A DNA stretch of 64,000 nt, taken from contig NZ_AJLL01000098.1 of NCBI RefSeq assembly GCF_000317225.1, positions 1 through 64,000 of the forward strand, given 5' to 3'. This DNA is from Fischerella thermalis PCC 7521 (GTDB lineage Bacteria > Cyanobacteriota > Cyanobacteriia > Cyanobacteriales > Nostocaceae). The stretch's first letter is position 1, and each line of letters starts with the position of its first letter. The notes beneath the pieces are model-generated. The model was given only the letters and a program-made list of their open reading frames with translations. It was not told the DNA's origin and made no database searches. Made by a program: the position numbers and the translations under genes. Positions 3,554 through 32,657 of this stretch are shown here, in pieces.

Positions 3554-3554
3554 G

Positions 3555-3577
3555 TTGGTTGGTGGTTGGTGGTTGTT
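3555..3577. repeat. low-complexity TTGGTTGGTGG repeat
   Basis: Short run of TTGG/GGTGG units directly downstream of the kinase. It belongs to the same class of short tandem repeats seen in many gaps of this window. Confidence 0.6.
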
Positions 3578-3791
3578 GATCAATCATTCTCAACAGAGTA
3601 CAAGCCTCCAGATTTATCTCTAGGGTCAATCCAAAATCTAAAATCTAGATGGCTTGTGCTAAACAACAAACATCGAACAACCAATTTTAAACACCAAAAT
3701 ATTGAATATTTTATCAAAAAGGCATAGATTTTGAGAGCTTACGGGGGATAACTAGAGTATATGTCCTCCTTTGTTTTTATTCTCTTGAGCT

Positions 3792-4523
3792 ATGACCTAT
3801 TGCCTAAGAATTGCTGATATGCCAGAGACTGAGCGTCCACGGGAGCGCTTATTGGCTCATGGTGCAAAAGTTCTATCCACAGCAGAATTAATAGCAATTT
3901 TGCTTGGCACTGGTCAAGGCCCGGGAAAACTTTCTGCGGTGGGTTTGGGACAATACATATTACATGAATTGAGTAAATGCGATCGCGAACCTTTAGCAGT
4001 TCTACGAGAAATTAGCGCTGCTGAACTCATGCAAATACCCGGTATTGGCCCAGCCAAAGCAACAACAATTTTAGCAGCCATTGAATTGGGCAAACGCGCC
4101 TTTCAATCGCGCCCTGCGGATCGTACAGTTATAGATAGCCCAGCAGCAGCGGCGGCTGCTCTCAGTCAAGATTTGATGTGGCAAAACCAAGAACGCTTTG
4201 CAGTTCTGTTACTAGATGTGAAAAATCGCTTACTGGGAACGCAAGTCATTACTATAGGAACTGCAACCGAAACCCTCGCACCTCCCCGTGAGATTTTTCG
4301 AGAAGTGATTCGTCAAGGTGCAACACGGTTAATTGTTGCCCATAACCACCCTTCTGGTAACATCGAACCCAGTAGCGAAGATATCGAACTCACTCGCCAG
4401 TTACTAGCAGGAGCTGCGTTTTTAGGTATTCCCCTGCTTGATCATTTAATTTTAGGTAATGGCAATCATCAGAGTTTGCGGGAAATTACAACTTTGTGGG
4501 AAGAGTGTCCCCAAGGAGATTAG
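3792..4523 (+). CDS. radC: RadC/JAB-domain DNA repair-like protein
   Basis: At 243 residues this is a full-length RadC. The N-terminal part carries the helix-hairpin-helix ([20 protein letters not shown], about 80-99). The C-terminal JAMM metalloprotease-fold motif is complete: H184[13 protein letters not shown]197, with an upstream Glu in the [12 protein letters not shown] block. The family is named after an old DNA-repair phenotype, but its biochemical role is still unsettled; the JAMM motif predicts a zinc-bound hydrolase centre. The gene is monocistronic, with repeats on both sides. The ATG at 3792 gives [20 protein letters not shown], the standard family N-terminus. Confidence 0.92.
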
Positions 4524-4650
4524 ACTTTTTGCACAAATATCTTTTGCCCTATCCTAAATCTTACCCGTTTGCGGAGAGAGAACAAGTGGTATATGTCATT
4601 ATATCAAGTTCGGCTAATTGCTTACGATATTACCCTTCGGGTTCGCTACT

Positions 4651-4680
4651 TTGCCATCTCGGCATAAGCCAAGACGGCAA
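4651..4680. repeat. 30-bp imperfect palindrome after radC
   Basis: TTGCC-TCT-GGC arms face GCC-AGA-GGCAA with single-base interruptions. It lies after a CCCTTCGGGTTCGC stretch and looks like one of the dispersed palindromic repeats common in Nostocales intergenic DNA. It could act as a radC terminator. Confidence 0.5.
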
Positions 4681-4751
4681 GTAGTCTCACCAATTACCTA
4701 TTACCAATTACCAGCCTAGGCGATATTAGTTCTGACTCTTTGCGAGGGGCC

Positions 4752-4783
4752 AGATCCCCGACTTTTTAAAAAGTCTGGGATCT
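4752..4783. terminator. strong palindrome between radC and nnr
   Basis: AGATCCCCGACTTTTT faces AAAAAGTCTGGGATCT, 16-bp arms with a single mismatch and no loop spacer. It overlaps the last base of the nnr stop codon and lies between convergent genes, so it could terminate transcription from either side. The AGATCCCCGAC...GTCGGGGATCT pattern recurs in cyanobacterial genomes as a mobile palindrome (from memory, not searched here). Confidence 0.6.
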
Positions 4784-6489: not shown

Positions 6490-6551
6490 GGTTGATAGCC
6501 AGTCTTCTTATAACCATTAACCACTGTACAGGTCCACAGTCGTACGCCCCT

Positions 6552-6968
6552 ATGGATGTATTTGTATCATCAAAAAAGGGGAATGGATTAACTACTAATG
6601 CCTTGTTTGCCTTAGCTTACCTGGCAGGGGAAGATTGTATTGCTAACGCTAGACCTGGGTCTTTTCTCGATGCCTTTTTCTTTAGTGTGCAAACTCTGGC
6701 TTCTATTGGCTACGGGGCAATGTTTCCTAAAACAACCTATGCTAATGTTGTTGTCACTATTGAAGCAATGATGGGTTTGGTGGGAATTGCGGTACTGACT
6801 GGTTTAGCATTTGCCCGTTTCTCTCGACCTACAGCCCGTGTCATTTTTAGCCGGGTAGCAGTAATTGCGCCTCACAATGATGTACCTACTCTCATGTTTC
6901 GCGCCGCAAACAAGCGCCGCAACCAGATTTTGGAAGCGCAGTTACGGGTTTACTTGATGCGCAAATAG
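6552..6968 (+). pseudogene. truncated inward-rectifier potassium channel (KirBac-type) relic
   Basis: The frame contains the pore region of a prokaryotic Kir channel: the end of outer helix M1 (NALFALAYLAG), a pore helix (FLDAFFFSVQTLAS), the selectivity filter S-I-G-Y-G (normally T-I/V-G-Y-G), the M2 helix (MMGLVGIAVLTGLAFARFSRPTAR) and the first strand of the cytoplasmic domain. It then stops at LRVYLMRK, where homologues continue for roughly another 150 residues of C-terminal gating domain. Upstream, most of M1 and the slide helix are missing and are replaced by unrelated sequence. Both ends are therefore truncated and a working channel is unlikely. It is divergent from nnr, with only 62 bases between. 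Confidence 0.75.
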
Positions 6969-6994
6969 TTGTAATTTAATTTTTGATTTTTTTT

Positions 6995-7087
6995 ATGAGT
7001 TTTAATGATCTTCCCAATCTTTGGGTTCCTTTAGCACTTTTGGGTTTAATTATTGCGGCTGCTGTGTTTTTCAGCCGCAGTAGCTGA
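6995..7087 (+). CDS. possible 30-residue single-pass membrane peptide
   Basis: An ATG-started frame of 30 codons encodes MSFNDLPNLWVPLALLGLII then AAAVFFSRSS. It has a short polar N-terminus, one hydrophobic helix (about residues 10-26) and a basic/serine tail, the shape of small photosynthetic or membrane-complex subunits. I could not match it to a known Psa, Psb, Pet or Ndh small subunit. There is no clear Shine-Dalgarno sequence, only a T-run upstream. It lies 26 bases after the Kir relic. It may be real or chance. Confidence 0.35.
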   Translation: MSFNDLPNLWVPLALLGLIIAAAVFFSRSS

Positions 7088-7416
7088 GTGGTGATAGTTT
7101 TGTCACTAAAATATTTACAAAAACCTAACTCACACAAAACAAAAAGCAAATAAAGATTTCTGAGGCTAAGATGCTGAAAGTGGAAGCTGGGGTTCGCTAC
7201 TGTTTGGGATTATAAACCATAGTAAAAAGGAGCTATGCTCACTTGAGGATATACGATCGCACACCACCAACACAATATCGAGCGATCACACCTTCTGAAT
7301 CACTAAGTGAAAATTCCTACCCTTCATCCTTCACCCTTCTTTTATGACTTAATGACTAATTTCTCCCTTTGAGGGGTACAATAAATGCCGATTGTCTTCC
7401 AAACTTTGAAAGCTTC
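7088..7416. other. efp upstream region
   Basis: 329 bases without a supportable gene. It contains CGATCGCAC (HIP1-like) near 7253 and presumably the efp promoter. A TTG at 7369 in frame with efp exists but would add 16 non-conserved residues. Confidence 0.45.
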
Positions 7417-7974
7417 ATGATCTCCAGTAACGACTTTCGACCTGGTGTCTCAATTGTTTTAGATGGATCTGTATGGCGAGTTGTGGAATTCCTCCACGTT
7501 AAGCCCGGAAAAGGTTCCGCTTTTGTGCGAACAAAATTAAAAAATGTCCAGAGTGGAAACGTGGTAGAAAGGACATTCCGCGCCGGGGAAACTGTACCAC
7601 AAGCGACTCTGGAAAAAAGCACGATGCAGCATACCTATAAAGACGGTGATGAATACGTTTTTATGGATATGGAAACCTATGAAGAAGGTAGATTAAGTGC
7701 AGCCCAAATTGGCGATCGCGTTAAATATCTTAAAGAAGGTATGGAAGCTAACGTCATCCGTTGGGGTGAACAAGTACTAGAAGTTGAACTACCTAACTCT
7801 GTAGTATTAGAAGTGGTGCAAACTGACCCTGGTGTCAAAGGTGACACAGCTACTGGTGGCAGTAAACCTGCAATACTGGAAACTGGTGCAGTTGTGATGG
7901 TTCCTCTATTTATTAGCCAAGGAGAACGCATCCGTATTGACACCCGTAATGACACATACCTGGGCAGGGAGTAA
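7417..7974 (+). CDS. efp: translation elongation factor P
   Basis: EF-P binds the ribosome between the P and E sites and relieves stalling at polyproline. Starting at the ATG at 7417 ([18 protein letters not shown]) gives 185 residues, the normal family length; an upstream TTG would add 16 unconserved residues. The three OB/KOW-like domains are present. The tip loop carries K-P-G-K-G-S-A-F near residue 30, with lysine at the position modified in gammaproteobacteria. The C-terminus has [16 protein letters not shown]. accB follows about 440 bases downstream, a neighbourhood (efp-accB) I recall as frequent in cyanobacteria. Confidence 0.97.
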
Positions 7975-8415
7975 ATTATAACTCAGCAAAGATGGAAATC
8001 TATATTTCTATCCCTAGCGGGGATTTCCATCCCTGCCTCGCTTAACCCTGTTCTGTCACTCTCGGAAAACAATAATCTCAGCCAACTTCTGAGACTTTGG
8101 TTTCATCCGGGTTTGAGGCTTTATTTTCTAACAGAAACTAAAATTTATAGACGAAAAGTGGAAACTAAAGCCCCGTAACTATTTGAGCGATTGGATTCTC
8201 CCAAAGTGACAAATGAGGGTTAATATTTATCTTTACCAAAAAGCCTATCTACCAGTAAACTCGTCATCAACTGCGTACACCAAAACGCACTGAAAAACTT
8301 GGTAATTGGTAATGGGTAATTGGTAATGGGTAATTGGTAATAAAAAATGATATTTATGAAATTTCTGCCCTCTGCCCTCTGCCTTTTTTAACGCATTATT
8401 GAGGTAATCAAAGCT
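7975..8415. other. efp-accB intergenic region with hairpin and repeats
   Basis: It holds a perfect 10-bp inverted repeat GATGGAAATC/GATTTCCATC (7991-8000 and 8022-8031, no T-run), a possible efp transcript end. It also contains a stretch (8263-8300) almost identical to one at 17684-17722, and the GGTAATT repeat before accB. Confidence 0.5.
8299..8341. repeat. tandem GGTAATT/GGTAATGG repeat upstream of accB
   Basis: About six units of the seven-base type TTGGTAA/TGGGTAA in a row, ending some 75 bases before accB. It is the same repeat class as at 9482-9510 and 18631-18718. Confidence 0.75.
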
Positions 8416-8967
8416 GTGCCATTGGACTTTAATGAAATTCGTCAATTGTTAGAAACCATCGCTAAAACAGACATTGTAGAAGTAGCACTCAAAAGCAACG
8501 ATTTTGAAATCACAATACGTAAAGCTGTTACGGCTACTGCTGGAGTTTTACCAGCAACCGTAGCAACTCCAAGCGCTGCTACTGGTGCTGGATTACCGCT
8601 TGTGAGCGCAATGCCATCAGTAGCATCTACTCCAACAACAGATGCAACTACAAACAGTACAGTTGATACTCCTACGAGTACAGGTGTAAAATCATCAGCT
8701 ACTCCCTCACCACTTGAGCAAAAAAAATTTACAGATGTTACTTCCCCAATGGTGGGAACATTTTATCGTGCCCCTGCACCAGGTGAGCCACCATTTGTAG
8801 AAGTGGGCGATCGCATCCGTAGCGGTCAAACTGTGTGTATTATTGAAGCCATGAAGCTCATGAATGAAATTGAAGCGGAAGTATCCGGGCAAGTGGTTGA
8901 AATTCTGGTTCAAAATGGTGAACCTGTAGAATATGGTCAGCCTTTGATGCGAATTAATCCAGATTAA
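8416..8967 (+). CDS. accB: acetyl-CoA carboxylase biotin carboxyl carrier protein
   Basis: BCCP carries the biotin that shuttles carboxyl groups in the first step of fatty-acid synthesis. The 183-residue protein has the N-terminal PLDFNEIRQLLETIAKTDI block, an Ala/Thr/Pro-rich linker (about 40-105) and the C-terminal biotinyl domain (about 108-183). That domain holds the biotinylation motif I-I-E-A-M-K-L-M-N-E-I-E, in which the lysine is the attachment site. The start is GTG at 8416, chosen because PLDFNEIR is the conserved family beginning. A GAGG at 8401-8404 could serve as ribosome-binding site at a rather long spacing. ArsR follows 69 bases downstream. Confidence 0.96.
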   Translation: MPLDFNEIRQLLETIAKTDIVEVALKSNDFEITIRKAVTATAGVLPATVATPSAATGAGLPLVSAMPSVASTPTTDATTNSTVDTPTSTGVKSSATPSPLEQKKFTDVTSPMVGTFYRAPAPGEPPFVEVGDRIRSGQTVCIIEAMKLMNEIEAEVSGQVVEILVQNGEPVEYGQPLMRINPD

Positions 8968-9036
8968 GTATTAATGTATATAACTGATGTCTAAAGTTGT
9001 AAAATTTCTCAGTTCAGTTCTTCCCGGACAATCCTG

Positions 9037-9381
9037 ATGAAACAAACGTTGCCTGTACCGCCAGAAGTTGTGCAACAAGTAGCTGAATACTTCAGCCTGT
9101 TGAGTGAACCAATGCGCCTGCGATTGCTGCATTTATTGCGGGATGAAGAAAAATGCGTACAAGAGTTGGTAGAGGCAACCCAAACGTCACAAGCAAATGT
9201 ATCAAAGCACCTGAAGGTGATGTGGCAAGCGGGGATTCTTAGCCGTCGTAGCGAAGGAACTTGTGCCTACTATCGGGTGGAAGATGATATGATTTTTGAA
9301 TTGTGTAACCGAGTTTGCGATCGCCTTGCCAGTAGGTTAGAACAACAAGCCCGGAGTTTTCGTGTATTGAATACTAAGTAA
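9037..9381 (+). CDS. ArsR/SmtB-family transcriptional regulator
   Basis: A 114-residue winged-helix protein. The HTH lies at about residues 38-65 (CVQELVEATQTSQANVSKHL) followed by the wing (GILSRRSEGTCAYYRVEDD). Cysteines are at 40, 76, 90 and 94. C40 sits at the helix position where arsenic/metal or persulfide sensors place a thiol, but the usual alpha3 CxC metal motif is absent. It could therefore be a redox or sulfide sensor of the BigR/YgaV kind, or a single-thiol regulator; this is inference. It lies 69 bases after accB on the same strand, with no obvious target operon beside it. Confidence 0.85.
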   Translation: MKQTLPVPPEVVQQVAEYFSLLSEPMRLRLLHLLRDEEKCVQELVEATQTSQANVSKHLKVMWQAGILSRRSEGTCAYYRVEDDMIFELCNRVCDRLASRLEQQARSFRVLNTK

Positions 9382-9384
9382 TTT

Positions 9385-9510
9385 AGTCATTAGTCATTTG
9401 TCCTTTGTCATTAGTCATTTTTCCTTTGCTCTACCCAAAACAAAGCTGAATAAAGCACGTTCATACTATTAGTATTTTTCCGATGACCAATGACCAATGA
9501 CCAATGACTA
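9385..9510. repeat. TTAGTCA / ATGACCA seven-base repeats
   Basis: Two runs: TCATTAGTCATTTGTC-type at 9385-9421, and four ATGACCA units at 9483-9508. They face each other as complementary arrays, so a transcript of this gap between convergent genes could fold into a long imperfect hairpin. Confidence 0.7.
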
Positions 9511-9515
9511 CACGA

Positions 9516-10124
9516 TTAAAGTTGAAAATTTTCCTTAAAGTTTTGACGTGTCAGTGGCTGTTCCAACTCCAAACCTTCACCACCCAACACATCTAGTTGT
9601 TTGCCGTCTACATCAATATACACTTTGGCGTTCGGATTTAAACTAGTGGCGGTGTAAACAATTTGACCAATACGCCCTTGCATAGAAGTGCTACCGCCGC
9701 CGCTGGTAAATTCTCCAGATAAATTGACACGAACAGTATCACCTTGAACATCTACACCCAGCAATTTTGTTCCCTGAGGAATTGTACTCGAACCACTACT
9801 TCCTTCTGTAGGTCCTTCTAATAAACGTTGGAATGCTGCTGTTAAAAATTGGTTGGGTTGGTTACGATTTGCTTGCACTTGAACTGATTGAGGAACCAAT
9901 TTAAAATTTGTGCCAGTATCTTGTAACCAATAAATTTGGGTAGTTTGTTCATTTCCTACCTGGGGTGGATTCCCTGGTACAAGGCGTTCTGATGGTGTAG
10001 GATTGGTGTTCTGATGAGAATTCCAAGTTAACCAGCCTACCCCCCCTCCTACCAACACAACTGCTGCTGAAATAGCTGCTATTACACCAGAAGAAACCCG
10101 TTTCGATCCTTGTTGTTGACTCAT
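9516..10124 (-). CDS. GerMN-domain membrane-anchored protein
   Basis: A 202-residue protein starting at ATG 10124, preceded by AAGGAAGG. A TTG two codons upstream is also in frame but less likely. Residues about 12-35 form a single hydrophobic anchor (VIAAISAAVVLVGGGVGWLT), followed by an Asn/Pro-rich linker. A GerMN domain (about 65-190) follows, with FQRLLEGPTEG, LLGVDVQGDTVRVNLSGEF and QIVYTATSLNPNAKVYIDVD. GerMN domains occur in spore germination and cell-envelope proteins; in cyanobacteria the role is unknown, probably periplasmic. DUF2993 lies immediately upstream on the same strand (68 bases), so the two may be co-transcribed. Confidence 0.8.
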   Translation of the reverse strand: MSQQQGSKRVSSGVIAAISAAVVLVGGGVGWLTWNSHQNTNPTPSERLVPGNPPQVGNEQTTQIYWLQDTGTNFKLVPQSVQVQANRNQPNQFLTAAFQRLLEGPTEGSSGSSTIPQGTKLLGVDVQGDTVRVNLSGEFTSGGGSTSMQGRIGQIVYTATSLNPNAKVYIDVDGKQLDVLGGEGLELEQPLTRQNFKENFQL

Positions 10125-10192
10125 ATGCAAAACCTTCCTTAAGCTCTTGATGCTATCTATATGAAGAGAAGTTTGGTTAACGACGAGACTTA

Positions 10193-10993
10193 CTAACGAC
10201 GAGTTTCCAAAAACTTAGAAGATGGTTCTAACCTTACAAATGCTGCCATTTCTAATTTCCCTGGTTTCATTTTCCATTTTAGAATTCGCATTTGGACTCC
10301 GTCACCTTCCAAATTACGTAAATCTAATTGTTGATTTATGTTACTAATAATCATATTGAGAAATTCTGTTGGGAACTCCTGTCCATCTAATGATACTTTT
10401 GGATCTACTAGTTGAAATTGTCTGCCACCAACTATATTTAACCCAGAATTGATTTTAATTAAAAGGGGTATTACCTCCTGCTCGTTTTGTAACTCTACCT
10501 GGAAACTAAAGCGATTATTGGGTAAAAATTCTACCTTAGGGTTAGCGAAACTGGAGGCTTCGGTAAACTCAAGAGCAGAAAAATTCCCTTTATTCAATTC
10601 TTGCAGCTGCTTCAGAAATTGTGGTGATTGTAAAAGTTTATTGATATCTTGCTCTGTTACAACTAAGCGTACTCCAGCCTGTAAAGGTTGTTTTAATTTG
10701 GGTAAGTTTTGCCTCAAACTAGTTGGATCAAATTCTATTTCATCGGTCTCCAATTCTAAAACTGCGATGCGGAAATCTTGTTGTTTTAGTTGCAAAGAAC
10801 GCCCTGCAATTAACACTCTTTCCACCTTACCTTGCAGTAATTGATAACTAGGAGCATTATCGACTCTTACTTGTAGTTGTTCCACTGTTGAAAACTGCGA
10901 ACGGATGGTATTTTCAGCAGTCTGATCAATTACCACTCCTACAGGAGCAACTACACCCAATAGGCTAGATATAAGGATTGTCAGAAGTTCCAT
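10193..10993 (-). CDS. DUF2993 (LmeA-like) protein
   Basis: A 266-residue protein with the DUF2993 pattern. It has an N-terminal hydrophobic segment (MELLTILISSLLGVVAPVGV), then TAENTIRSQFSTVEQLQVRV, a core of beta-strand repeats (VERVLIAGRSLQLKQQDFRI, TDEIEFDPTS), and a C-terminal LKWKMKPGKLEMAAFVRLE. Members are abundant in cyanobacteria; the actinobacterial relative LmeA binds lipids in the periplasm. A role in envelope lipid handling is plausible but unproved. The N-terminal segment may be a signal anchor. GerMN follows downstream. Confidence 0.8.
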   Translation of the reverse strand: MELLTILISSLLGVVAPVGVVIDQTAENTIRSQFSTVEQLQVRVDNAPSYQLLQGKVERVLIAGRSLQLKQQDFRIAVLELETDEIEFDPTSLRQNLPKLKQPLQAGVRLVVTEQDINKLLQSPQFLKQLQELNKGNFSALEFTEASSFANPKVEFLPNNRFSFQVELQNEQEVIPLLIKINSGLNIVGGRQFQLVDPKVSLDGQEFPTEFLNMIISNINQQLDLRNLEGDGVQMRILKWKMKPGKLEMAAFVRLEPSSKFLETRR

Positions 10994-11013
10994 TTTATTA
11001 TTTTGAAGGGAAT

Positions 11014-11068
11014 TGGGGGTGATGGGGCAATGGGGAGGTAGGGAGGTAGGGAGGTGGGGTGATGGGGA
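11014..11068. repeat. GGGAGGT/GGGGTGA low-complexity repeat
   Basis: Purine-rich seven-base-like units (GGGAGGT three times, GATGGGG twice) in the gap between proS and the DUF2993 gene. The same motif class is inserted into nnr at 6208-6291. Confidence 0.7.
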
Positions 11069-11122
11069 GAAAAATTTCTTTGTTGTCCTCGTTGTCCTCT
11101 TTGTCCCCCCTATCCCTAGTTC

Positions 11123-12928
11123 CTAACTTACTGCTTGCGAGATCCACCCTTTAAGAGTAGATACAACTTCCGTGATGTGGATTTCCTGAGAATTGCGGCT
11201 TTTTCTTTCGACTACTTCGACTTTGCCATTGGCGATCGCTCTTCCTGTGACAATTCTGTAGGGTATGCCAATCAAATCTGCATCCTTGAATTTTACTCCT
11301 GCTCGTTCGTTGCGATCATCGAGGAGGGTTTCAATTCCAGCTTGATTGAGTTCTGTGTAAAGTTGTTCGGCGATTTCTACTTGTTGAGCGTCGTTGATGT
11401 TGGGAATTGTGACAATGGCGTGATAAGGTGCGATCGCGACAGGCCAAATAATCCCGTCTTTATCGTAAGATTGCTCTACTGCCGCTTGTGCCAAGCGTGA
11501 CACTCCTACACCGTAACAACCCATCACAAGTGGTTTTTCTTCTCCCTGTTCATTGGTATAAGTTGCTCCCATTGCAATTGAGTATTTTGTACCCAACTGG
11601 AAAATATGCCCGACTTCAATCCCCCGGGCACTTTTTAAGGTTTGTTCGGGGTTATGTATGGCGCGATCGCCTGGTCTGGCTTTGCGTATATCTACGATAT
11701 TTTCTGGTAGTGTAAATTGCTTGTCCCAATTAGCACCAACTACGTGATAGCCAGACTCATTGGCGCCAGTGACAAAGTTCTTTAAATCAACGACGGTTTT
11801 ATCTGCCAAACGCAAAAATTTCGGTGCAACATCTTTAGTAGATTGAATATAATCATCGGCAATATCGGGCGCAACATAACCCAAAGGTAAAGGTTTCGCC
11901 GCCCATTTTTTCTGGGCATCTGCATCAGGTACTATTAACTTCAAAACCGCATTTCCACCATATTCAGAAGCTAATTTTGTCAACTCATTTTGTAACTTGA
12001 CTTCGTTAACTTCCTGATCACCCCGAATACTCACCAGTACCAAAACCGTTGTGTTGTTATCGTATAGTGCCTGGTAGAGAACATTTTTCACAACTTGAGT
12101 CGGAGAACATTTGAGGAAATCACAAAGTTTTTCAATTGTCTCAGTTCCCGGAGTTTCCCGTTTTTCATAACTTGTAAACGGGGAATTTTCCGCATCAGCA
12201 GGTAGAGAAACAGCTTTTTCCACATTAGCGGCGTACTGTCCATCTTCGGTATAGAGGACTTCATCTTCGCCAGCTTCTGCCAAAACCATAAATTCTGTGG
12301 AACCAGTACCACCAATCGCCCCAGAGTCAGCTTCTACAGCACGAAAACTCAAACCAGAACGCCGCAGCATATTGCTGTAGGCTTGGTACATATCCTGGTA
12401 AGTTTTTTTCAGGCTTTCTTCATCCGCATTAAAGGAATAAGCATCCTTCATAATGAATTCCCGTCCACGCATCAAACCAAAGCGGGGACGAATTTCATCG
12501 CGGAATTTAGTTTGAATTTGGTAGAGGTTCAGGGGTAGCTGTCGGTAAGAGCGAATCATATCACGAGCGATCATCGTGATCACTTCCTCGTGAGTCGGTC
12601 CTAATGCTAATTCTTGTTCGCGACGATCAGTGAGGGCGAACATAATACCCTCAGCTTTGGTGTAAGTATCCCATCTGCCAGATTCACGCCATAGTTCTGC
12701 TGGTTGTAATTGCGGTAAGAGACATTCTTGGGCGCCTGTGGCGTTCATTTCTTCCCGCACAATTTGAGAAACTTTTTGCAGTACCCGCCACATCAATGGC
12801 AAATATGCGTAAACACCGCTACCGATGCGACGAATGTAACCTGCGCGCAGTAGTAATTTATGACTGGGGATTTCAGCATCGGCTGGATCATCCCGCAGTG
12901 TAACGAATAACATTTGTGACAGTCGCAT
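11123..12928 (-). CDS. proS: prolyl-tRNA synthetase
   Basis: The enzyme charges tRNA-Pro. At 601 residues it is a bacterial-type ProRS. It has class II motif 1 (about 40-70), motif 2 ([20 protein letters not shown]), an inserted editing domain between motifs 2 and 3 (about 225-405) ending in K[14 protein letters not shown], motif 3 ([15 protein letters not shown]) and a C-terminal anticodon-binding domain (about 500-601). The N-terminus [20 protein letters not shown] is standard. It faces the acyltransferase gene divergently. Confidence 0.97.
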
Positions 12929-24691: not shown

Positions 24692-25006
24692 ATGAAATCA
24701 AAAACAGTAGAAGTTAATATCTCAGAAAATACAATTGTTGTGGCATCTGTTGAGCAAATTTCCTCTGATTTGGGAGGTGAAGCAGTAATTCTCAATCTGA
24801 AATCTGGTGTATACCACGGTTTGAATGAAGTAGGAACATTGATCTGGAATTTGATTCAAACACCCAAAACTGTCAAGGATATTAAAGCAGCTATCTTGGC
24901 AGAGTACGAAGTTGAAGCCGAACGGTGCGATCGCGATTTGCTCAAGTTACTTGAAGATCTTTTAGCTGCGGAACTAATAAATATTCAAAATGACGCTACT
25001 GTTTAA
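24692..25006 (+). CDS. PqqD-family RiPP recognition protein (lasso B1)
   Basis: This 104-residue protein is a PqqD/RRE-fold peptide-binding protein. The N-terminal strands (VEVNISENTIVVASVEQISS) lead to DLGGEAVILNLKSGVYHGLN, then EVGTLIWNLIQTPKTVKDIK and a C-terminal helix region (RDLLKLLEDLLAAELI). In lasso-peptide pathways B1 binds the precursor leader through its YxxPxL motif and presents it to protease and cyclase; both downstream precursors carry that motif. The start is ATG with AAGGA at 24675-24679. It overlaps the next gene by 17 bases, so the two are translationally linked. Confidence 0.92.
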   Translation: MKSKTVEVNISENTIVVASVEQISSDLGGEAVILNLKSGVYHGLNEVGTLIWNLIQTPKTVKDIKAAILAEYEVEAERCDRDLLKLLEDLLAAELINIQNDATV

Positions 25007-25430
25007 ATTTGTGAGTTTTAATGCAGGCGATCGCCACTTACTAATCATGACCTTGATTTTACTGGCAGCTATGCGCCTGGGATTGTGGTTATTACCGTTT
25101 CGCACTCTTTTAAAGCTGTTACCAAAAATAAGTCAACCAGTTAGCCTACAAACTACCAACCAAGTATCCATCCGCAAAATTGTCTGGGCTGTAGAGGTAG
25201 CCAGTCGTTACACGCCTGGCGTCAAGTGTTTAGCTCGTGCCTTGACTACGCAAGTCCTGATGAATAGATATAATCACCCTTGTCAACTCCGCATTGGTGT
25301 CGCCAAAGACAAGACAGGAATCCTAGAAGCTCATGCTTGGATAGAACATCAGGGAAAGATTGTGATTGGGAATCTCGCAGACCTTTCTCGCTTCATTCCC
25401 CTGCCAACCCTAGAAGGAGTCAAGTTATGA
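24990..25430 (+). CDS. lasso peptide leader protease B2 (transglutaminase-like)
   Basis: The B2 cysteine protease removes the leader peptide. The 146-residue protein has two N-terminal hydrophobic segments (about 14-46). The transglutaminase-like core follows: C80 in V-K-C-L-A-R-A-L-T as the nucleophile, H115 in L-E-A-H-A-W-I-E, and a polar partner in GNLADLSRFIPL. Length and motif order match B2 proteins in split (B1+B2) lasso clusters. Its stop overlaps the ATG of the cyclase (ATGA). The upstream start at 24990 is preferred to an internal ATG at 25047 because homologues have a basic/hydrophobic N-terminus before the R-L-x-L-W-L-L-P-F block. Confidence 0.92.
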   Translation: MTLLFKFVSFNAGDRHLLIMTLILLAAMRLGLWLLPFRTLLKLLPKISQPVSLQTTNQVSIRKIVWAVEVASRYTPGVKCLARALTTQVLMNRYNHPCQLRIGVAKDKTGILEAHAWIEHQGKIVIGNLADLSRFIPLPTLEGVKL

Positions 25431-27454
25431 GTGGGATGATGGGAATTTACTATCTTGACGGGCGTTCTGTAGACAAGCAAGATTTAGAAAAGATGGTAAA
25501 TACTCTCGCTCACCGTGGTCCTGATGGTGCAGACATCTGGCATGATGGAAATTTGGGTTTTGGTCATAGAATGCTGTGGACTACCCCCGAATCTCTACTA
25601 GAAAAGTTACCTTTAGTTAATCAAACGGGTGATTTAGTCATTACATCCGATGCTCGCATCGACAATCGGGAAGAATTATTATCTATATTACAAATAAATG
25701 ATTGTCCACTCGAAAAAATAACGGACACTCAGCTAATATTAGCTGCTTATCAAAAATGGGAAGAGCTATGTGCAGAGCATCTACTTGGTGATTTTGCTTT
25801 TGCGATTTGGGATAGAAAAAAGCAAACACTTTTCTGTGCAAGAGACCATTTTGGAGTCAGGCCTTTTTACTATTACTATCAACCAAATCAAGAATTCATA
25901 TTTGCTTCAGAAATCAAAGCACTCCTATGTTTACCACAGGTACCACGTCGCCTCAATGAAGTTAGGATTGGCGACTACTTGACATTGATGATGGAAGATC
26001 AAAAGATCACCACCTATAAAAATATTCTGCGGCTTCCTCCGGCTCATAGTATGGTGGTCAGTCAATCAGGAATACAACAATGGTCTTACTGGTCACTTGA
26101 CCCTGAGCATGAAATTCATTTAGCTGATAATGAAGCTTATGCTCAAGAATTTCGGCAGATCTTCACAGAAGCTGTCAAGTGTCGCTTGCGTAGCGCCTTT
26201 CCCTTGATCAGCCAACTGAGCGGTGGCTTGGATTCTTCGGCTGTGACTTGTGTAGCACGGAATCTGCTTGCGGAAGTAGGAAAAACTCCATTGCACACCA
26301 TCTCAAGTATTTTTGATAAAGTTACTGAATGTGATGAACGCCCCTTTATCAATGCTGTACTAGAACAGGGAGGATTCATTCCCCACTACATTCATGGTGA
26401 TGAATTTGGTCCTTTGTCTAATCTAGATAGTATTTTTCAGTATGAAGATGAGGCTTTATTGGGCCCGAGTCATTTCTATCCTTGGATGGTTTATCGCGCC
26501 GCCAAAGAACTGGGAATGCGGATTACCCTAGATGGCTTTGATGGCGATACCACAGTGAGCCACGGGATAGCTAGACTCACGGAATTAGGACGTCAAGGTA
26601 AATGGAAAGCTCTCATCCAGGAAGCTAAAGCCATAGCAGCACAGCACAATGTTTCGCCATACGTAGTTTTTCGGGGCCATGGTTTACCATATCTCCAAGA
26701 TTTAGTCAAGAAGTGGCAATGGATAGAGTTTGTTAAAACCGTACAGTTGATTCACAAACATTTTGGTGTTTCCCGGAAATTGTTAATTATCGCTCACGGA
26801 ATTAAGCCTTTCTGGGAACAAGTACGGTTATTCTGGAGGGGACAACACAGACAAAAAACATCTCCTGATTGGTCTTTACCTCAGACTCCTCTTGTCAACC
26901 GTAACTTTGCACAACGTATTTGTCTGGATGAACGGATGCAAACGTTAAGCCCTCCACGGGAAGCGCCCCTGACTTTAAGACAGGAGCATTGGCGTAGCTT
27001 AACTCAAGGAATACTAGCCTACACCCTAGAACAGATGGATCAATATGCAGCAATGTTTTCTTTGGAAGTTCGCCATCCTTTCATGGATAAGCGACTTATA
27101 GAATTTTGTCTAGCATTGCCTTCTGAACAAAAACTATATCAAGGATGGGGACGGATGGTCATGCGCCGTGCTTTAGCAGGAATTCTTCCAAAAAGCATTC
27201 AGTGGCGGACTGACAAAGCTGATTTGTCACCAAATTTTAATGATGGCTTTCTCAAGCGCGATCGCCAAATTCTCGATCAGGTGATGTCCCAAAAAATGAA
27301 AAACCTGGAGAAATACATTAATTTAGATGTTCTGCAAACAGCTTATCAGCGCATTCTTGCGGCAGAAAACCAAGCTAGCAACGATGATTGGATGGCAGTT
27401 TGGCAGGCAGTCATCTTAGCATCATGGCTGGACTTTAAAGGATTGACACCGTAA
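25427..27454 (+). CDS. lasso peptide macrolactam synthetase (asparagine-synthetase-like cyclase, C protein)
   Basis: The 675-residue enzyme adenylates the side-chain carboxylate of the ring Asp/Glu and closes the isopeptide bond. It has a class-II glutamine-amidotransferase-like N-domain (about 1-215: GIYYLDGRSV, LAHRGPDG, SDARIDNREEL, FCARDHFGVRPFYY) and an ATP-pyrophosphatase synthetase domain with S265-G-G-L-D-S-S271. The N-terminus is MSGMMGIYY, not MCGI, so the amidotransferase nucleophile Cys2 is missing and ammonia generation is not expected; this is consistent with an amide-forming cyclase using a peptide amine. The start is ATG at 25427 with GGAG eight bases upstream, overlapping the B2 stop. 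Confidence 0.93.
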   Translation: MSGMMGIYYLDGRSVDKQDLEKMVNTLAHRGPDGADIWHDGNLGFGHRMLWTTPESLLEKLPLVNQTGDLVITSDARIDNREELLSILQINDCPLEKITDTQLILAAYQKWEELCAEHLLGDFAFAIWDRKKQTLFCARDHFGVRPFYYYYQPNQEFIFASEIKALLCLPQVPRRLNEVRIGDYLTLMMEDQKITTYKNILRLPPAHSMVVSQSGIQQWSYWSLDPEHEIHLADNEAYAQEFRQIFTEAVKCRLRSAFPLISQLSGGLDSSAVTCVARNLLAEVGKTPLHTISSIFDKVTECDERPFINAVLEQGGFIPHYIHGDEFGPLSNLDSIFQYEDEALLGPSHFYPWMVYRAAKELGMRITLDGFDGDTTVSHGIARLTELGRQGKWKALIQEAKAIAAQHNVSPYVVFRGHGLPYLQDLVKKWQWIEFVKTVQLIHKHFGVSRKLLIIAHGIKPFWEQVRLFWRGQHRQKTSPDWSLPQTPLVNRNFAQRICLDERMQTLSPPREAPLTLRQEHWRSLTQGILAYTLEQMDQYAAMFSLEVRHPFMDKRLIEFCLALPSEQKLYQGWGRMVMRRALAGILPKSIQWRTDKADLSPNFNDGFLKRDRQILDQVMSQKMKNLEKYINLDVLQTAYQRILAAENQASNDDWMAVWQAVILASWLDFKGLTP

Positions 27455-27580: not shown

Positions 27581-27793
27581 ATGAAGAAAACCTATATTGC
27601 ACCAAAGCTAATTGCACACGGCAGTGTCGAAACAATCACCAACTTTTCTGGCAACCGGACACGCACGGATTTCGTATTCTTCAATGGTGATAACAATGCT
27701 GGTCTTTCTGGTCCAGTTAATCTGAATGGTAGTCTGGGTTCCATTGACCATTTTGATACTCCATGTCCCGAGAATCCAAGTAGATGCAAATAG
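27581..27793 (+). CDS. lasso-type RiPP precursor peptide 1
   Basis: A 70-residue precursor. The start is ATG at 27581 after AAAGGAG. The leader MKKTYIAPKLIAHGSVETIT carries the Y5-x-x-P8-x-L10-x-x-x-G14 recognition motif. Thr20 sits where lasso leaders place Thr at position -2. Next comes NFSGNRTRTD with Asp30, the likely ring-closing residue, then FVFFNG and a 34-residue Gly/Asn-rich tail with C62 and C69. If cleavage follows residue 21, Asp30 is core residue 9; if the conserved Gly24 is residue 1, the ring has 7 residues. The tail is much longer than in known lasso peptides. The gene lies 126 bases after the cyclase. Confidence 0.88.
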   Translation: MKKTYIAPKLIAHGSVETITNFSGNRTRTDFVFFNGDNNAGLSGPVNLNGSLGSIDHFDTPCPENPSRCK

Positions 27794-28174
27794 TGCTCAA
27801 ACTAGATCCATCAGAATTGGATAAAACGTCACTGGCTTAAGAGCCTAAAAGTAATTGTTCGATGGTCTTGGATTTAACCACCAACCACTCACCAGTACTT
27901 TCAGGCAGCTTAAGAGAGTAACAGCAGGCTACATCATTCATTATAGATAAGCACATGTAGTCTGATCCAGTTTTCAATCTTGGCAGGTCGTAGCTTAGGG
28001 AGTTTGGTATACATCACTCACGATGAAAATACTGCTAAATCCAGGTTTCCGGCAGACCTTGGTTGTAGATACTGCTGATCTAGCAACCACTAAGCTGCGC
28101 CGTAAGTCCAACAAGGGGCTCTACACTCAAAAACTACTAAGTCAACTTTATCACTCAAAACAAGGAGACAAAAC
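27794..28174. other. spacer between the two precursor genes
   Basis: 381 bases. A 51-codon frame at 28023-28178 starts MKILLNPGFRQTLVVDTADL and its stop overlaps the ATG of precursor 2. It has no Shine-Dalgarno sequence and no leader motif, so it is at most a coupling ORF or gene relic. No other element was recognised. Confidence 0.4.
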
Positions 28175-28393
28175 ATGAAAAGTACGTATAGTACCCCTGT
28201 ACTCAGTGTTTATGGCGATGTGACCGAAATTACCCAAATTCTTGGTAGTTCTGGACAAACAGATTTCCTGTTTTTCACTGGTAGTGGTCAGTCTGTATCT
28301 GGTGGCAATGATAAAGGTTCCCTGGATATCATCTGTGATGGTACAGGCTGGAGGAATTTAGGTAATTGCCGAACTGCTCCTACCAAGAAATAG
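28175..28393 (+). CDS. lasso-type RiPP precursor peptide 2
   Basis: A 72-residue precursor. The start is ATG at 28175 after AAGGAGA. The leader MKSTYSTPVLSVYGDVTEIT keeps Y5, P8, L10, G14, V16 and T20 of precursor 1. It continues QILGSSGQTD with G24, T29 and D30 in the same register, then FLFFTG. Identity then ends: the tail (residues 37-72) is Gly/Ser-rich, contains C54 and C65, and ends in APTKK. The shared first 36 residues indicate duplication followed by tail diversification, with one processing machinery serving both. Core boundaries are uncertain for the same reasons as in precursor 1. Confidence 0.87.
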   Translation: MKSTYSTPVLSVYGDVTEITQILGSSGQTDFLFFTGSGQSVSGGNDKGSLDIICDGTGWRNLGNCRTAPTKK

Positions 28394-28745: not shown

Positions 28746-29651
28746 ATGAAGTGTTATAAAGCCTATAATTTGTGCATTGCTTGCGAATTACCACTTCCAG
28801 AGTTGATGGAAAGTGAATCTGAACCAGATGTAATTGTGCGGTTTGGCGATGTTAATGACGCGATCGCCACACAACATGATGGTGGCACAAATATTGTGGG
28901 AGGAATACCAGAAGTAGGTAAATTTTTTATCCAAAATGGACGGGAAATTGTGATCAATCCTCTACCAGATGTGGATGAGGCTGTTCTGCGGACTGTACTT
29001 TTAGGTCCTGTATTATGCGCTCTGCTGCGACAAAGAGGACTGTTAGTTTTACATGCTAGTTGTGTTGACATCAATCATCAAGGAGTAGCATTTTTAGGTG
29101 GTTCCGGTTGGGGAAAATCTACCCTAGCAACTGCTTTTCATAATCAAGGCTACGCTGTTTTAACAGATGATGTTATGGCTATCCAAATTCAAGCGGGGCG
29201 ACCTTTAGTCTTGCCTGCTTATCCTCAGTTTAAAGTTTTTCCAGAAGCTTTGAGTTGCTTAGGATATGATACTAAAAATTTATCACCAGTTTATCAAAGT
29301 ACAACAAAGCTAGCTTATAAATTTACTCGTGGTTTCCAGCAAATTCCCCTACCACTACAACGTGTCTATGTCTTGGATAAAGGAAGTGAACATTTGATCG
29401 CAAAAATGCAACCCCAAGAAGCATTTGTCGCATTGGTGCGCCATACTCGTGCTATGGGTGTATTAACAAAAAAAGAATTTGTTGCTAATCATTTACGTCT
29501 TTGTAGCGAGTTAATTAAAAGTGTAAAGTTTAGCCGTTTCACTCGTAAACCTTCCTTGGAAGATTTACCGAATTTAGTGAAGTTAGTTGAGGATGATATT
29601 AGCAATACTCTGGAAAATTCCTCTGATTATTTATTAGCTACCAAATCTTGA
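28746..29651 (+). CDS. HPr kinase-like protein of the RiPP cluster
   Basis: A 301-residue protein with the HprK-type P-loop kinase core: VLHASCVDI, Walker A G118-G-S-G-W-G-K-S-T126, and VLTDDVMAIQ with paired aspartates. It lacks the N-terminal HPr-kinase regulatory domain and has instead a ~75-residue N-terminal extension. HprK-like kinases in lasso clusters (paeninodin type) phosphorylate a C-terminal serine of the peptide. Neither precursor here ends in serine, so a different Ser/Thr or another role is implied. Its stop overlaps the TTG start of the ABC transporter. A clear Shine-Dalgarno sequence is missing. Confidence 0.85.
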   Translation: MKCYKAYNLCIACELPLPELMESESEPDVIVRFGDVNDAIATQHDGGTNIVGGIPEVGKFFIQNGREIVINPLPDVDEAVLRTVLLGPVLCALLRQRGLLVLHASCVDINHQGVAFLGGSGWGKSTLATAFHNQGYAVLTDDVMAIQIQAGRPLVLPAYPQFKVFPEALSCLGYDTKNLSPVYQSTTKLAYKFTRGFQQIPLPLQRVYVLDKGSEHLIAKMQPQEAFVALVRHTRAMGVLTKKEFVANHLRLCSELIKSVKFSRFTRKPSLEDLPNLVKLVEDDISNTLENSSDYLLATKS

Positions 29652-31510
29652 ATTCACAGGGTCTTGATATTTTGAAGCGCAAATTTCGTAGTGCCAATAC
29701 TATCATAAATCATCTAATTCAAACTCTCAGTCTGGTCTGGGCTGCCTCTGGCTACTGGACTTTAGCGAGTATGGTAATGTTATTAGTGCAGGGAATACTG
29801 CCAGCAATTTCCCTTACTTTCACTCGTCAGGTCGTTGATAATTTAGTGGTAGTTGCTGGAAATGGTCTCTCTGTGGCAAATGTGCAAAAGATTTTGATTC
29901 CAGTGGCATTGATGGCGGGTATCATGCTGTTGGGAGAGTTTTTCAATAGTTCTGGCGAATGGATTCGCACTGCTCAATCAGAATTAGTAAATGACCATAT
30001 CACAGCTTTAATTCATAACCAGTCAGTAGCAGTAGATTATGGTTTTTATGAATATTCAGAATATAATGACAAACTGAATCGCGCCCGAGAAGGAGCAAGT
30101 GGGCGATCGCTAGCATTATTAGAAAGCATTGGTAGTTTGTTGCAAAACAGTGTCACATTGTTGGCAATGGCAACAATCTTAATTCCTTACGGTCTTTGGC
30201 TACCCACAATTTTAATTATCAGTGCTTTTCCGGCGTTCTATATATTAATGTATCTTAGCAAAATTCAATATCAATGGTCACAGCGGACAACAACTGACCG
30301 TCGCTGGCTGATGTATTATGACTATCTGCTGACAAACAGTTCTACCGCCGCAGAAGTACGATTATTTGACTTTGCTAATCATTTTCAGTCTGCTTATCAG
30401 ATTCTGCGTCGGCGACTTGTCAAAGAACAATTCCATTTATTAAAACTGCAAACTTTAGGTCGCTTTATTGCTGCCATAATTGCACTGATAATTACTGGTG
30501 GGGCTCTAGCTTGGATGGGGCGGCAAGTATTATTAGGTATTTTAACATTAGGAGATTTAGCTCTATTTTTCCAGGTATTTAATCAGGGACAAGGAATTGT
30601 TAAAGAGTTATTAAGTAATATTGGAAAAATTTATCGTAATAGCTTATTTATTGGTAATTTATTTGAGTTTTTACAAATCCAGCCCACAATTGTAGATCCA
30701 GAAAATCCAGTTGCTGTACCTACAAAACCTCAAAAAGAAATTCGATTTCGGCAGGTTACTTTCCGCTATCCTGGTGCTACAGAAGCTGTATTAGAGAATT
30801 TTAACTTGACAATTCCAGCTGGTAAAATTGTAGCGATCGTCGGTGACAATGGCGCAGGCAAAAGTACATTAATTAAGCTTTTGTGCCGTTTTTACGATCC
30901 AGATTCGGGAAGGATTGAATTAGATGGTATAGACTTACGTAACTTTGCCGTCAAAGAATTCCGTAGATTAATTACTGTTTTGTTCCAATCTCCCATTCCC
31001 TACTACACCACAGCAGGTGAAAATATTGCTTTGGGAGATATCACAGCACTATCAAATCAGGTAGAGATTGAATCGGCAGCTAAAGCATCGGGTATTCACG
31101 AAAAGATTATGCGCTTACCTTTGGGTTACAACACAATGCTGGGTAAGTTGTTCCCTGATGGAACCGATTTAAGTGGCGGTCAATGGCAACGCTTGGCACT
31201 AGCACGAGCATTTTTTAGACGCGCTCAAATCATTATTTTAGATGAACCAACAAGTGCTATGGATCCCTGGGCTGAATACGACTGGTTGGAACGTTTCCGC
31301 ACCTTAGCAGAAGGTCGTACTGCTGTTGTGATTACTCATCGTTTCACTCTTGCGATGCAAGCAGACATAATTCACGTCATGCGTGCTGGTCGGATTGTAG
31401 AGTCAGGGAATCATGACGAACTATTGGCTTTGGGTGGACTTTATGCTCAATCTTGGAAAGCACAAATGGAGTCCAGTTCGAGTCAGAAAGTGAAAAATGG
31501 GATTGCTTAA
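29648..31510 (+). CDS. ABC transporter, fused permease/ATPase (putative peptide exporter, D protein)
   Basis: The 620-residue half-transporter has six membrane segments within about 30-335. The ATPase carries Walker A G399-D-N-G-A-G-K-S-T407, signature LSGGQWQR, Walker B IIILDEPTSAMD and the H-loop VITHR. It lacks an N-terminal peptidase C39 domain, as expected when a separate B2 removes the leader. It most likely exports the mature peptide and may confer self-protection. The start is uncertain: TTG at 29648 overlaps the kinase stop, and TTG at 29672 has AGGG upstream. Both keep the first membrane helix. Confidence 0.9.
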   Translation: MNSQGLDILKRKFRSANTIINHLIQTLSLVWAASGYWTLASMVMLLVQGILPAISLTFTRQVVDNLVVVAGNGLSVANVQKILIPVALMAGIMLLGEFFNSSGEWIRTAQSELVNDHITALIHNQSVAVDYGFYEYSEYNDKLNRAREGASGRSLALLESIGSLLQNSVTLLAMATILIPYGLWLPTILIISAFPAFYILMYLSKIQYQWSQRTTTDRRWLMYYDYLLTNSSTAAEVRLFDFANHFQSAYQILRRRLVKEQFHLLKLQTLGRFIAAIIALIITGGALAWMGRQVLLGILTLGDLALFFQVFNQGQGIVKELLSNIGKIYRNSLFIGNLFEFLQIQPTIVDPENPVAVPTKPQKEIRFRQVTFRYPGATEAVLENFNLTIPAGKIVAIVGDNGAGKSTLIKLLCRFYDPDSGRIELDGIDLRNFAVKEFRRLITVLFQSPIPYYTTAGENIALGDITALSNQVEIESAAKASGIHEKIMRLPLGYNTMLGKLFPDGTDLSGGQWQRLALARAFFRRAQIIILDEPTSAMDPWAEYDWLERFRTLAEGRTAVVITHRFTLAMQADIIHVMRAGRIVESGNHDELLALGGLYAQSWKAQMESSSSQKVKNGIA

Positions 31511-31541: not shown

Positions 31542-32657
31542 ATGCAAACTCTACCAAAGTTAAATGCCAATATTTTAAATATCTATGTTCGCCCTGAAAT
31601 ACAGCTACTTCTTTATTGTGCTTCTACAAAAAGAGACGCTGCTAAAACCGAACAAATAAAAAGTTTGATTCAACTACCAAATTTAGACTGGCAAGATGTA
31701 ATTAGTCAGGCATATAAACATGGTTTAGTACCGCTTTTATACACTAACCTGAATACTATCTGTAAAGATGATATCCCCAAAGAAGCTATCAATCAAATTC
31801 GTCATCTTTCTTATGCCAATAGCCAACGCAACTTAGTTTTGTGTGCAGAATTATTTAAGATTCTGCATCTATTACAAGAAAAAGATATTAAAGGGGTTCC
31901 TTATAAAGGGCCAATTTTGGCTAGCACTGTATATGGCAATATAGCACTGCGCCCTAGTGGTGATTTAGATATTATAGTGCAACAGCAGCATGTTCTAGAG
32001 TTCAAGAAAATATTAATTTCTCTGGGATATCAACCATTAGTAGAATTAACTCAACGAGAAGAAATTGCCTTTCTTGAAGCGAAAAGCGAACATAGCTATA
32101 ACTTTTTTCATGATGAAAAGAAAATTCTGGTAGAGATTCACTGGAGAGTTAGCCCAGAATATACATCTCCAATCGAAACCAAACACTTTTGGAGTAAGCT
32201 AAAACCCTTCCCTTTTGCTGGCATTACAATACATAACCTACCGTTGGAGGATTGGTTGCCAATTTTATGTGTTCATGGTTCCAGACATCGTTGGGAAAGA
32301 TTAATTTGGCTTTGTGATATTGCAGAACTACTGCGGACTAATCCAGAAGTTAATTGGGATTATCTTATTCAAGTAACTACTGAATTAGACTGCAAGCGTA
32401 TGTTCTTTCTCGGTCTTTTTTTGGCTCATCATTTATTGGATGTCACCCTACCAGTAAAAGTGTTACGGCAAATCAAAGCAGATACAGAGGTAGTTGCTTT
32501 ATCTTCAGACATTTGTCAAAGTCTATTTACGAAAGATAATCATAACCCTAAATTTTTGGGCAGAACAATCTTTCATATGAGAGTCAGAGAACGCTGGCAA
32601 AATAAATTTTTGTATTTTCAATCGTTTCTACGCTGGTTAATGATTGTCAGAAAATAA
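31542..32657 (+). CDS. nucleotidyltransferase-family protein (NTP_transf_5-like) of the RiPP cluster
   Basis: A 371-residue protein of the putative nucleotidyltransferase family often found beside HprK-like kinases in lasso clusters. Visible features are the helical N-terminus (LLLYCASTKRDAAKTEQIKS), a nucleotidyltransferase core with G-V-P-Y-K-G-P-I-L-A and G-D-L-D-I-I-V (the D-x-D metal-binding pair), and later VEIHWRVSPEY and LCVHGSRHRWERLIWLCDIA. It probably modifies the peptide (nucleotidyl or further phosphoryl transfer); this is inferred from its position. It is the last gene of the cluster: 31 bases after the transporter and convergent with the polysaccharide locus. Confidence 0.8.
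   Translation: MQTLPKLNANILNIYVRPEIQLLLYCASTKRDAAKTEQIKSLIQLPNLDWQDVISQAYKHGLVPLLYTNLNTICKDDIPKEAINQIRHLSYANSQRNLVLCAELFKILHLLQEKDIKGVPYKGPILASTVYGNIALRPSGDLDIIVQQQHVLEFKKILISLGYQPLVELTQREEIAFLEAKSEHSYNFFHDEKKILVEIHWRVSPEYTSPIETKHFWSKLKPFPFAGITIHNLPLEDWLPILCVHGSRHRWERLIWLCDIAELLRTNPEVNWDYLIQVTTELDCKRMFFLGLFLAHHLLDVTLPVKVLRQIKADTEVVALSSDICQSLFTKDNHNPKFLGRTIFHMRVRERWQNKFLYFQSFLRWLMIVRK

Follow-up and report, generated by a model that had tools for sequence, protein, structure and literature searches.

Two lasso peptide precursors of Fischerella thermalis with a predicted nine-residue ring and a very long tail

Introduction

Where does the core begin in the two lasso peptide precursors, A1 and A2, that share one operon in Fischerella thermalis PCC 7521? 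We analysed the stretch of 64,000 nucleotides that carries them (the window, meaning this whole stretch), for which a sequence-only reading had set out two competing answers: (i) a core that starts at residue 22, with Thr20 at position -2 and Asp30 closing a ring of nine residues; (ii) a core that starts at the conserved Gly24, with Thr at -4 and Asp30 closing a ring of seven residues. The two readings were correctly stated, and the ambiguity resolves toward the first. Alignment with homologous precursors makes it highly probable that the core runs from Phe22 in A1 and Ile22 in A2, with Thr20 at -2 and Asp30 as the acid that closes a nine-residue ring.

The prediction of the core start concerns a family of precursors that is widespread in cyanobacteria (63 of the 217 genomes searched in the window's taxonomic family exceed the cut-off of the family model), and a wrong core start gives a wrong mass and hides the product in mass-spectrometric searches. 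The predicted ring of A1 and A2 is ordinary. What is unusual is their very long tail, with a second conserved block that had escaped the sequence-only reading; the tail is the part worth experiment. Its conserved block is a candidate site, open to testing, for the kinase; the positions at which such kinases are known to act do not fit these peptides.

Materials and Methods

Searches with the family model returned members in 23 of the 386 genomes of the phylum-wide search (E <= 0.01; 10 over the cut-off). Within the window's taxonomic family 90 of the 217 genomes matched (E <= 0.001), the 63 mentioned above with scores over the cut-off. From the genome matches 80 stretches were picked by hand and 10 named loci were added; an eleventh named locus, a distant Bacteroidaceae match, was excluded. 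The six operon proteins were mapped onto the fetched stretches by tblastn, and the loci were grouped roughly into 85 distinct clusters. Some loci represent one contig taken twice, and precursor counts rest on distinct sequences.

The initial search for precursors required Thr or Ile near position 20, and Pro was also part of the search pattern. The 137 candidates were reduced to 123: three ORFs of L115, L118 and L127 were judged not to be precursors, and 11 candidates lacked a nearby match to C (one each in L101 and L103, three in L124, and two each in L145, L147 and L148). Among the candidates excluded for this reason, L103 has Asp9, L101 has Asp10, and those of L124 have acids from position 11 onward. 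A Thr-independent pass covered 171 ORFs in the C-K intervals, 38 of them outside the set. Three were judged genuine by eye, bringing the set to 126, and all three have Thr; the other 35 were unrelated or out-of-frame ORFs, counted precursors read from a different start, or a single masked copy (L138, with N after residue 19). At L138 (5833-7750) five similar precursors and the masked copy form an array behind one cyclase. An orphan precursor with Ile at -2 was seen at L129 (9508), where the six operon proteins have no match in 19 kb, and it is uncounted.

Results

The operon consists of the following features, all on the + strand, with the B1, B2 and C genes adjoining A1 and A2:

24692..25006, + strand: B1, PqqD-like RRE predicted to bind the leader (PF05402, 71.8 bits)
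24990..25430, + strand: B2, leader peptidase (NF033537 lasso_biosyn_B2, 119.2 bits, cut-off 33; PF13471, 84.8 bits)
25424..27454, + strand: C, macrolactam (isopeptide) cyclase (NF033535 lass_lactam_cya, 1103 bits, cut-off 525)
27581..27793, + strand: A1, precursor peptide gene, 70 aa (NF033528 lasso_cyano, 60.5 bits, cut-off 33)
27581..27643, + strand: A1 leader, residues 1-21, Thr20 at -2 (register from homologues, published leader positions and humidimycin)
27644..27670, + strand: A1 predicted 9-residue ring FSGNRTRTD, residues 22-30 (family counts and alignment)
27671..27790, + strand: A1 loop and tail, 40 residues, with GSID (27737-27748), Cys62 and Cys69
28175..28393, + strand: A2, precursor peptide gene, 72 aa (NF033528 lasso_cyano, 80.1 bits, cut-off 33)
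28175..28237, + strand: A2 leader, residues 1-21, Thr20 at -2 (alignment)
28238..28264, + strand: A2 predicted 9-residue ring ILGSSGQTD, residues 22-30 (family counts and alignment)
28265..28390, + strand: A2 loop and tail, 42 residues, with GSLD (28316-28327), Cys54 and Cys65
28746..29651, + strand: K, HPr-kinase-like lasso kinase with conserved H103, K124, D141 and D142 (weak family matches)
29648..31510, + strand: ABC exporter (D), start TTG at 29648 (PF00005, 112.6 bits, query 29675-31507)
31542..32657, + strand: N, nucleotidyltransferase-like protein (PF14907, 209.2 bits)

B1 scores 77.1 bits against NF033536, slightly below the cut-off of 80, and matches by sequence the solved lasso RREs TbiB1 (5v1u, E 1.2e-11) and TfuB1 (6jx3, E 0.0013); the comparison of B2 with solved structures gave nothing useful. 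The cyclase and its counterpart in Fischerella muscicola PCC 7414 share 94% identity. The family matches of K are weak (TIGR04352, 33 bits against a cut-off of 200; PF07475, 27.4 bits against 33.3), and no peptidase domain is among the families listed for the ABC exporter (query 29675-31507). The arrangement recurs among the 85 clusters in counts that contig edges make lower bounds: at least 70 have B1-B2-C-A-K, at least 84 have K, at least 69 have an ABC relative downstream, at least 48 have an N relative within 8 kb downstream, and at least 37 have the full gene order of the window.

A1 and A2 are further members of the known lasso precursor family lasso_cyano (E-values 1.1e-16 and 8.3e-23), and the family model finds two matches in the genome (E <= 0.01), both inside the window. 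A search of the whole genome with A2 found A1 above chance (E 3.0e-5) and only one further match at E <= 10 (E 0.09), which contains internal stops. Each gene is preceded by an AGGAG stretch resembling a ribosome site, and both end with a TAG stop. As had been proposed, the peptides align without gaps through residue 36, and all 13 residues listed as conserved are identical (Y5, P8, L10, G14, V16, T20, G24, T29, D30, F31, F33, F34, G36); with M1, K2, T4 and I19 the identities number 17.

Which of the shared residues belong to the family was asked of the 126 distinct homologous precursors. In this set, which was gathered with a model containing the Thr, Gly and Asp columns and is biased toward all three, Thr20 and Pro8 are kept in 126/126, Asp30 in 112/126 and Gly24 in 101/126; at 70% redundancy, from the 123, the counts are 62/62 for Thr, 62/62 for Pro, 50/62 for Asp and 45/62 for Gly. 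Aligning more homologues had been suggested as a way to see whether T20 or G24 is invariant, and it is T20. The statement that Thr20 and Asp30 are fixed stands for Thr20 and is too strict for Asp30 in the wider family. Similarly, Thr29 is identical in A1 and A2 and occurs in only 18 of the 123 homologues, so that it is no family feature. Loss of both Gly24 and Asp30, which the sequence-only reading had named as counting against its proposal, does occur (8/123), with an acid in those members at core position 7, 8, 10, 11 or 12; 5/123 keep Gly24 and lose Asp30.

The register of the leader gives the core start directly. Published leader positions are Tyr(-17), Pro(-14) and Leu(-12), and YxxPxL is said always to span -17 to -12 (PMC10368454). 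Placed at these positions, Y5, P8 and L10 each make residue 22 the first core residue and T20 position -2. Humidimycin, with a 21-residue leader (MSAIYEPPALQEIGDFDELTK), the core CLGIGSCDDF... and a ring from Cys1 to Asp9 (PMC7168211), aligns with A2 without gaps, sharing Y5, P8, L10, G14, T20, L23, G24, D30, F31 and three more residues; on both A1 and A2 its leader Tyr, Pro, Leu, Gly and Thr align with Y5, P8, L10, G14 and T20, and its Gly3, Asp9 and Phe10 with G24, D30 and F31. The sole PDB match at E <= 10 for residues 1-38 of A2, the MS-271 precursor (8itg), agrees in register and is weak (E 0.12). The sequence-only reading regarded both outcomes as departures from the usual pattern, which is wrong for a start at residue 22: counted from there, A1 and A2 have YxxPxL at -17 to -12, Thr at -2 and Asp at core position 9, as is usual.

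A core from Gly24, with a 7-residue ring closed by Asp30, has on its side the frequency of that glycine and the fact that, counted from residue 24, an acid falls at 7-9 in 122/126; members with Asp at core position 10 would become ordinary 8-residue rings, and a published cyanobacterial lasso prediction, Cyanocohniella LLY, has an N-terminal Gly and a 36-residue product (PMC9332814), whose precursor may belong to this family. However, it demands Thr at -4 and YxxPxL at -19 to -14, where the published positions are -2 and -17 to -12; Gly24 is not kept wherever Asp30 is (17/123 lose Gly24 and retain Asp30); and the aligned Gly of humidimycin is ring residue 3. We regard this start as very improbable. 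A cut after residue 22, giving an 8-residue ring and Thr at -3, would bring most homologues (124/126, counted from residue 23) within the published ring range of 7-9. No precedent for Thr at -3 was found in the portion of the literature covered, however, and the cut clashes with the YxxPxL register and with humidimycin, so that we give it hardly any credence. Counted from residue 22, an acid falls at 7-9 in 118/126; the ring-size range on its own does not separate the candidate core starts.

The start at residue 22 leaves some points less well explained. The conservation of Gly24 (101/126) is accounted for only by analogy with siamycins. Fourteen members lack Asp9. An acid at 7 or 8 is present in six of them; in another six, acids occur only from position 10, and in the last two (L150) only at 11-12. 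The latter eight members therefore need rings above the published 7-9, or a shifted cut there. The members with Asp at 10 and no acid at core 7-9, outside the published range, are found at L069, L082, L107, L116, L119 and L142; the one of L119 shares its cluster with two Asp9 members.

The first residue of such a core had been called unusual. Among the 126 it is Ala in 45, Ile in 21, Val in 18, Phe in 10, Gln in 8 and Leu in 7, others being rarer; Gly at residue 22 together with Asp at core 9 occurs in L084, three L146 members and L105 (GFGASSQTD). Published first residues other than Gly include Ala, Ser, Cys and Leu (PMC6856326) as well as Asn (PMC12670498); an experimental lasso with Phe1 or Ile1 was not found in the parts of the literature searched. 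The readings are distinguishable by mass. With lactam and disulfide and no phosphate, we calculated 5250.41 Da (A1) and 5242.52 Da (A2) for the start at residue 22, 5016.31 and 5016.35 Da for the start at Gly24, and 5103.34 and 5129.44 Da for the one-residue shift.

Clusters L145, L147 and L148 serve as a natural control. They have relatives of B1, B2, K, ABC and N by tblastn, and no tblastn match to C within the fetched 19 kb. All six of their precursors keep the YxxPxL positions, the leader Gly and Thr at -2, and none of the six has Asp or Glu at core 1-14; an acid is present at core 7-12 in 126/126 precursors beside a C gene. Where a cyclase match is lacking, the Thr is still present and the acid is not, which ties the Thr to the peptidase and the acid to the cyclase. 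It should be noted that the six are closely related and represent one event or few, not six. The precursors of these clusters (QVGGSGGFGTT...) lack the ring acid, and one that was tested scores 25.8 against the lasso_cyano cut-off of 33. The L145 cluster (3543-11748) also has GT4-like and GT2-like glycosyltransferases, and these three clusters may make linear sugar-modified peptides.

Starting from residue 22, the predicted cores of A1 and A2 are 49 and 51 residues long. Past residue 36 both tails carry GS-x-D (A1 53-56; A2 48-51) followed by two cysteines, C62 and C69 in A1 and C54 and C65 in A2, the first of them 8 residues after the motif Ser in A1 and 5 in A2. In the family, a GSx[DN] block is found in 77/123 tails, compared to a shuffled mean of 7.7 and maximum of 17 (kinship of the sequences ignored), and the looser form [GDST][ST]x(1-2)[DN], for which there is no shuffled control, holds a Ser/Thr in 101/106 long cores. 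A published description of the GSx[D/N] block was not found in the portion of the literature covered, which is weak evidence of absence. Core cysteines number 0 in 72 precursors, 2 in 53 and 1 in 1 (n=126), i.e., 0 or 2 in 125/126, where random placement reaches 74 on average and 90 at most (kinship of the sequences again ignored). Among the 90 cysteines counted in motif-bearing tails, 37 sit 4 or 5 residues past the motif Ser. The tail pair could form a disulfide.

The tail evolves under coding constraint. The A1 tail differs from its L070 relative at 0.45 per synonymous site and 0.16 per non-synonymous site (uncorrected), and six Fischerella pairs of A2 relatives give 0.20-0.31 and 0.05-0.16, respectively, for the tail; the nine ring codons have 1 and 3 changes, too few for a rate comparison.

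Such lengths raise the possibility, compatible with a core from residue 22, that the long C-terminus serves for recognition or protection and is then removed, leaving a product of ordinary length, with GSxD as a site of processing and not of modification. Predicted cores exceed 33 residues in 106/126 (median 43), beyond the long lassos in a review, pandonodin with 33 and achromonodin-1 with 30 (PMC13352647); the same review mentions carboxypeptidase trimming of tails, and anything from 13 to 30 residues separates Asp9 from the motif Ser. Conversely, 87 of the 90 cysteines come after the motif Ser, which with the strict pairing of cysteines suggests that the segment is kept; non-synonymous differences in the A1 tail stay below synonymous ones; and a tail protease was not recognised among the operon genes tested. 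We consider trimming unlikely on balance. Equally tentative is the fuller proposal that A1 and A2 yield full-length lassos of 49 and 51 residues, in which the internal Ser of GSx[D/N] would be phosphorylated, and perhaps sugar-capped, beside a disulfide loop, and that the six Asp10 relatives would make 10-residue rings.

Among 97 K relatives (90 distinct) H103 is kept in 97, K124 in 97, D141 in 95 and D142 in 96. Lasso kinases are described with His, Lys, Asp and Asp residues (PMC9266682), to which these four would correspond; the residue-by-residue match is our own assignment. Among solved structures K has matches to HPr kinases, dephospho-CoA kinases and isocitrate dehydrogenase kinase; all of them are weak, with E-values of 0.015 or higher. 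Known lasso kinases target a C-terminal Ser (PMC9266682), and BsfK targets core Ser3 (PMC10368454). Neither position fits as the target of K: A1 and A2 end in Lys, and 13/123 homologues end in Ser against a shuffled mean of 12.1; core position 3 is Gly in 101/126. The Ser of the GSxD block (Ser54 in A1, Ser49 in A2) is the target that we propose, with a likelihood a little short of even. In a FastTree tree of 90 kinases, the labels C-terminal Ser and internal Ser change 11 times, compared to 19.1 when shuffled, a stronger grouping than by chance that is equally explained by common descent and carries little weight; the C-terminal-Ser label there also covers long-tailed peptides whose last residue happens to be Ser (L064, L081, L096 and L098). 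Short-core members, some or all of them ending in Ser and paeninodin-like, occur at L107, L125, L130, L131 and L146, and in this rough tree their kinases are set apart from most of those that accompany long-tailed precursors.

Discussion

We propose the following model for the window. A1 and A2 would be two lasso precursors processed by a single enzyme set. B1 would bind the leader at Tyr5-x-x-Pro8-x-Leu10 (-17, -14, -12), and B2 would read Thr20 at -2 and cleave after residue 21. The cyclase would then form the bond between the new N-terminus (Phe22 in A1, Ile22 in A2) and the Asp30 side chain. In the resulting 9-residue ring, the conserved Gly24 would be residue 3. The tail would presumably thread through this ring, and its two cysteines may form a disulfide that closes a class IV-like tail loop. 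K would phosphorylate the Ser of the GSxD block. PsmN of pseudomycoidin adds a hexose to a phosphorylated Ser (PMC9266682), and N, which we liken to PsmN by published description only, may next add a sugar or nucleotide to that phosphate. The ABC protein would export the product last.

Among known systems, the family model NF033528 lasso_cyano has the same leader, Thr(-2), Gly3 and Asp9 region as A1 and A2; it comprises 35 positions and stops short of the GSxD and cysteine block of their tails. Siamycin-type precursors (humidimycin, MS-271) are alike in their reported 21-residue leader, the core from residue 22, and Gly3, Asp9 and Phe10 in register. They differ in that their core has 21 residues and two disulfides connecting to the ring (class I), whereas the rings of A1 and A2 lack Cys and their predicted cores have 49 and 51 residues.

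The long tail has its nearest counterpart in pandonodin, which is described as class IV, with a tail-tail disulfide and 33 aa (PMC13352647), and which resembles A1 and A2 in a long tail to which the Cys pair is confined. In comparison, A1 and A2 have predicted cores that exceed it by 16-18 residues, genes for a kinase and a nucleotidyltransferase-like protein accompany them, and their disulfide is putative.

With respect to the tailoring genes, the paeninodin and pseudomycoidin clusters have, like the window, an HPr-like kinase with His-Lys-Asp-Asp, and that of pseudomycoidin also has a nucleotidyltransferase-like gene (PMC9266682). Their kinases are reported to modify a C-terminal Ser, whereas in the family of the window a C-terminal Ser occurs at chance. 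The Bradymonas Bsf cluster has the same set of B1, B2, C, D, K and N, and a kinase target other than the C-terminus (PMC10368454), as proposed here for the window; BsfK hits core Ser3, whereas core position 3 is mostly Gly in this family (101/126).
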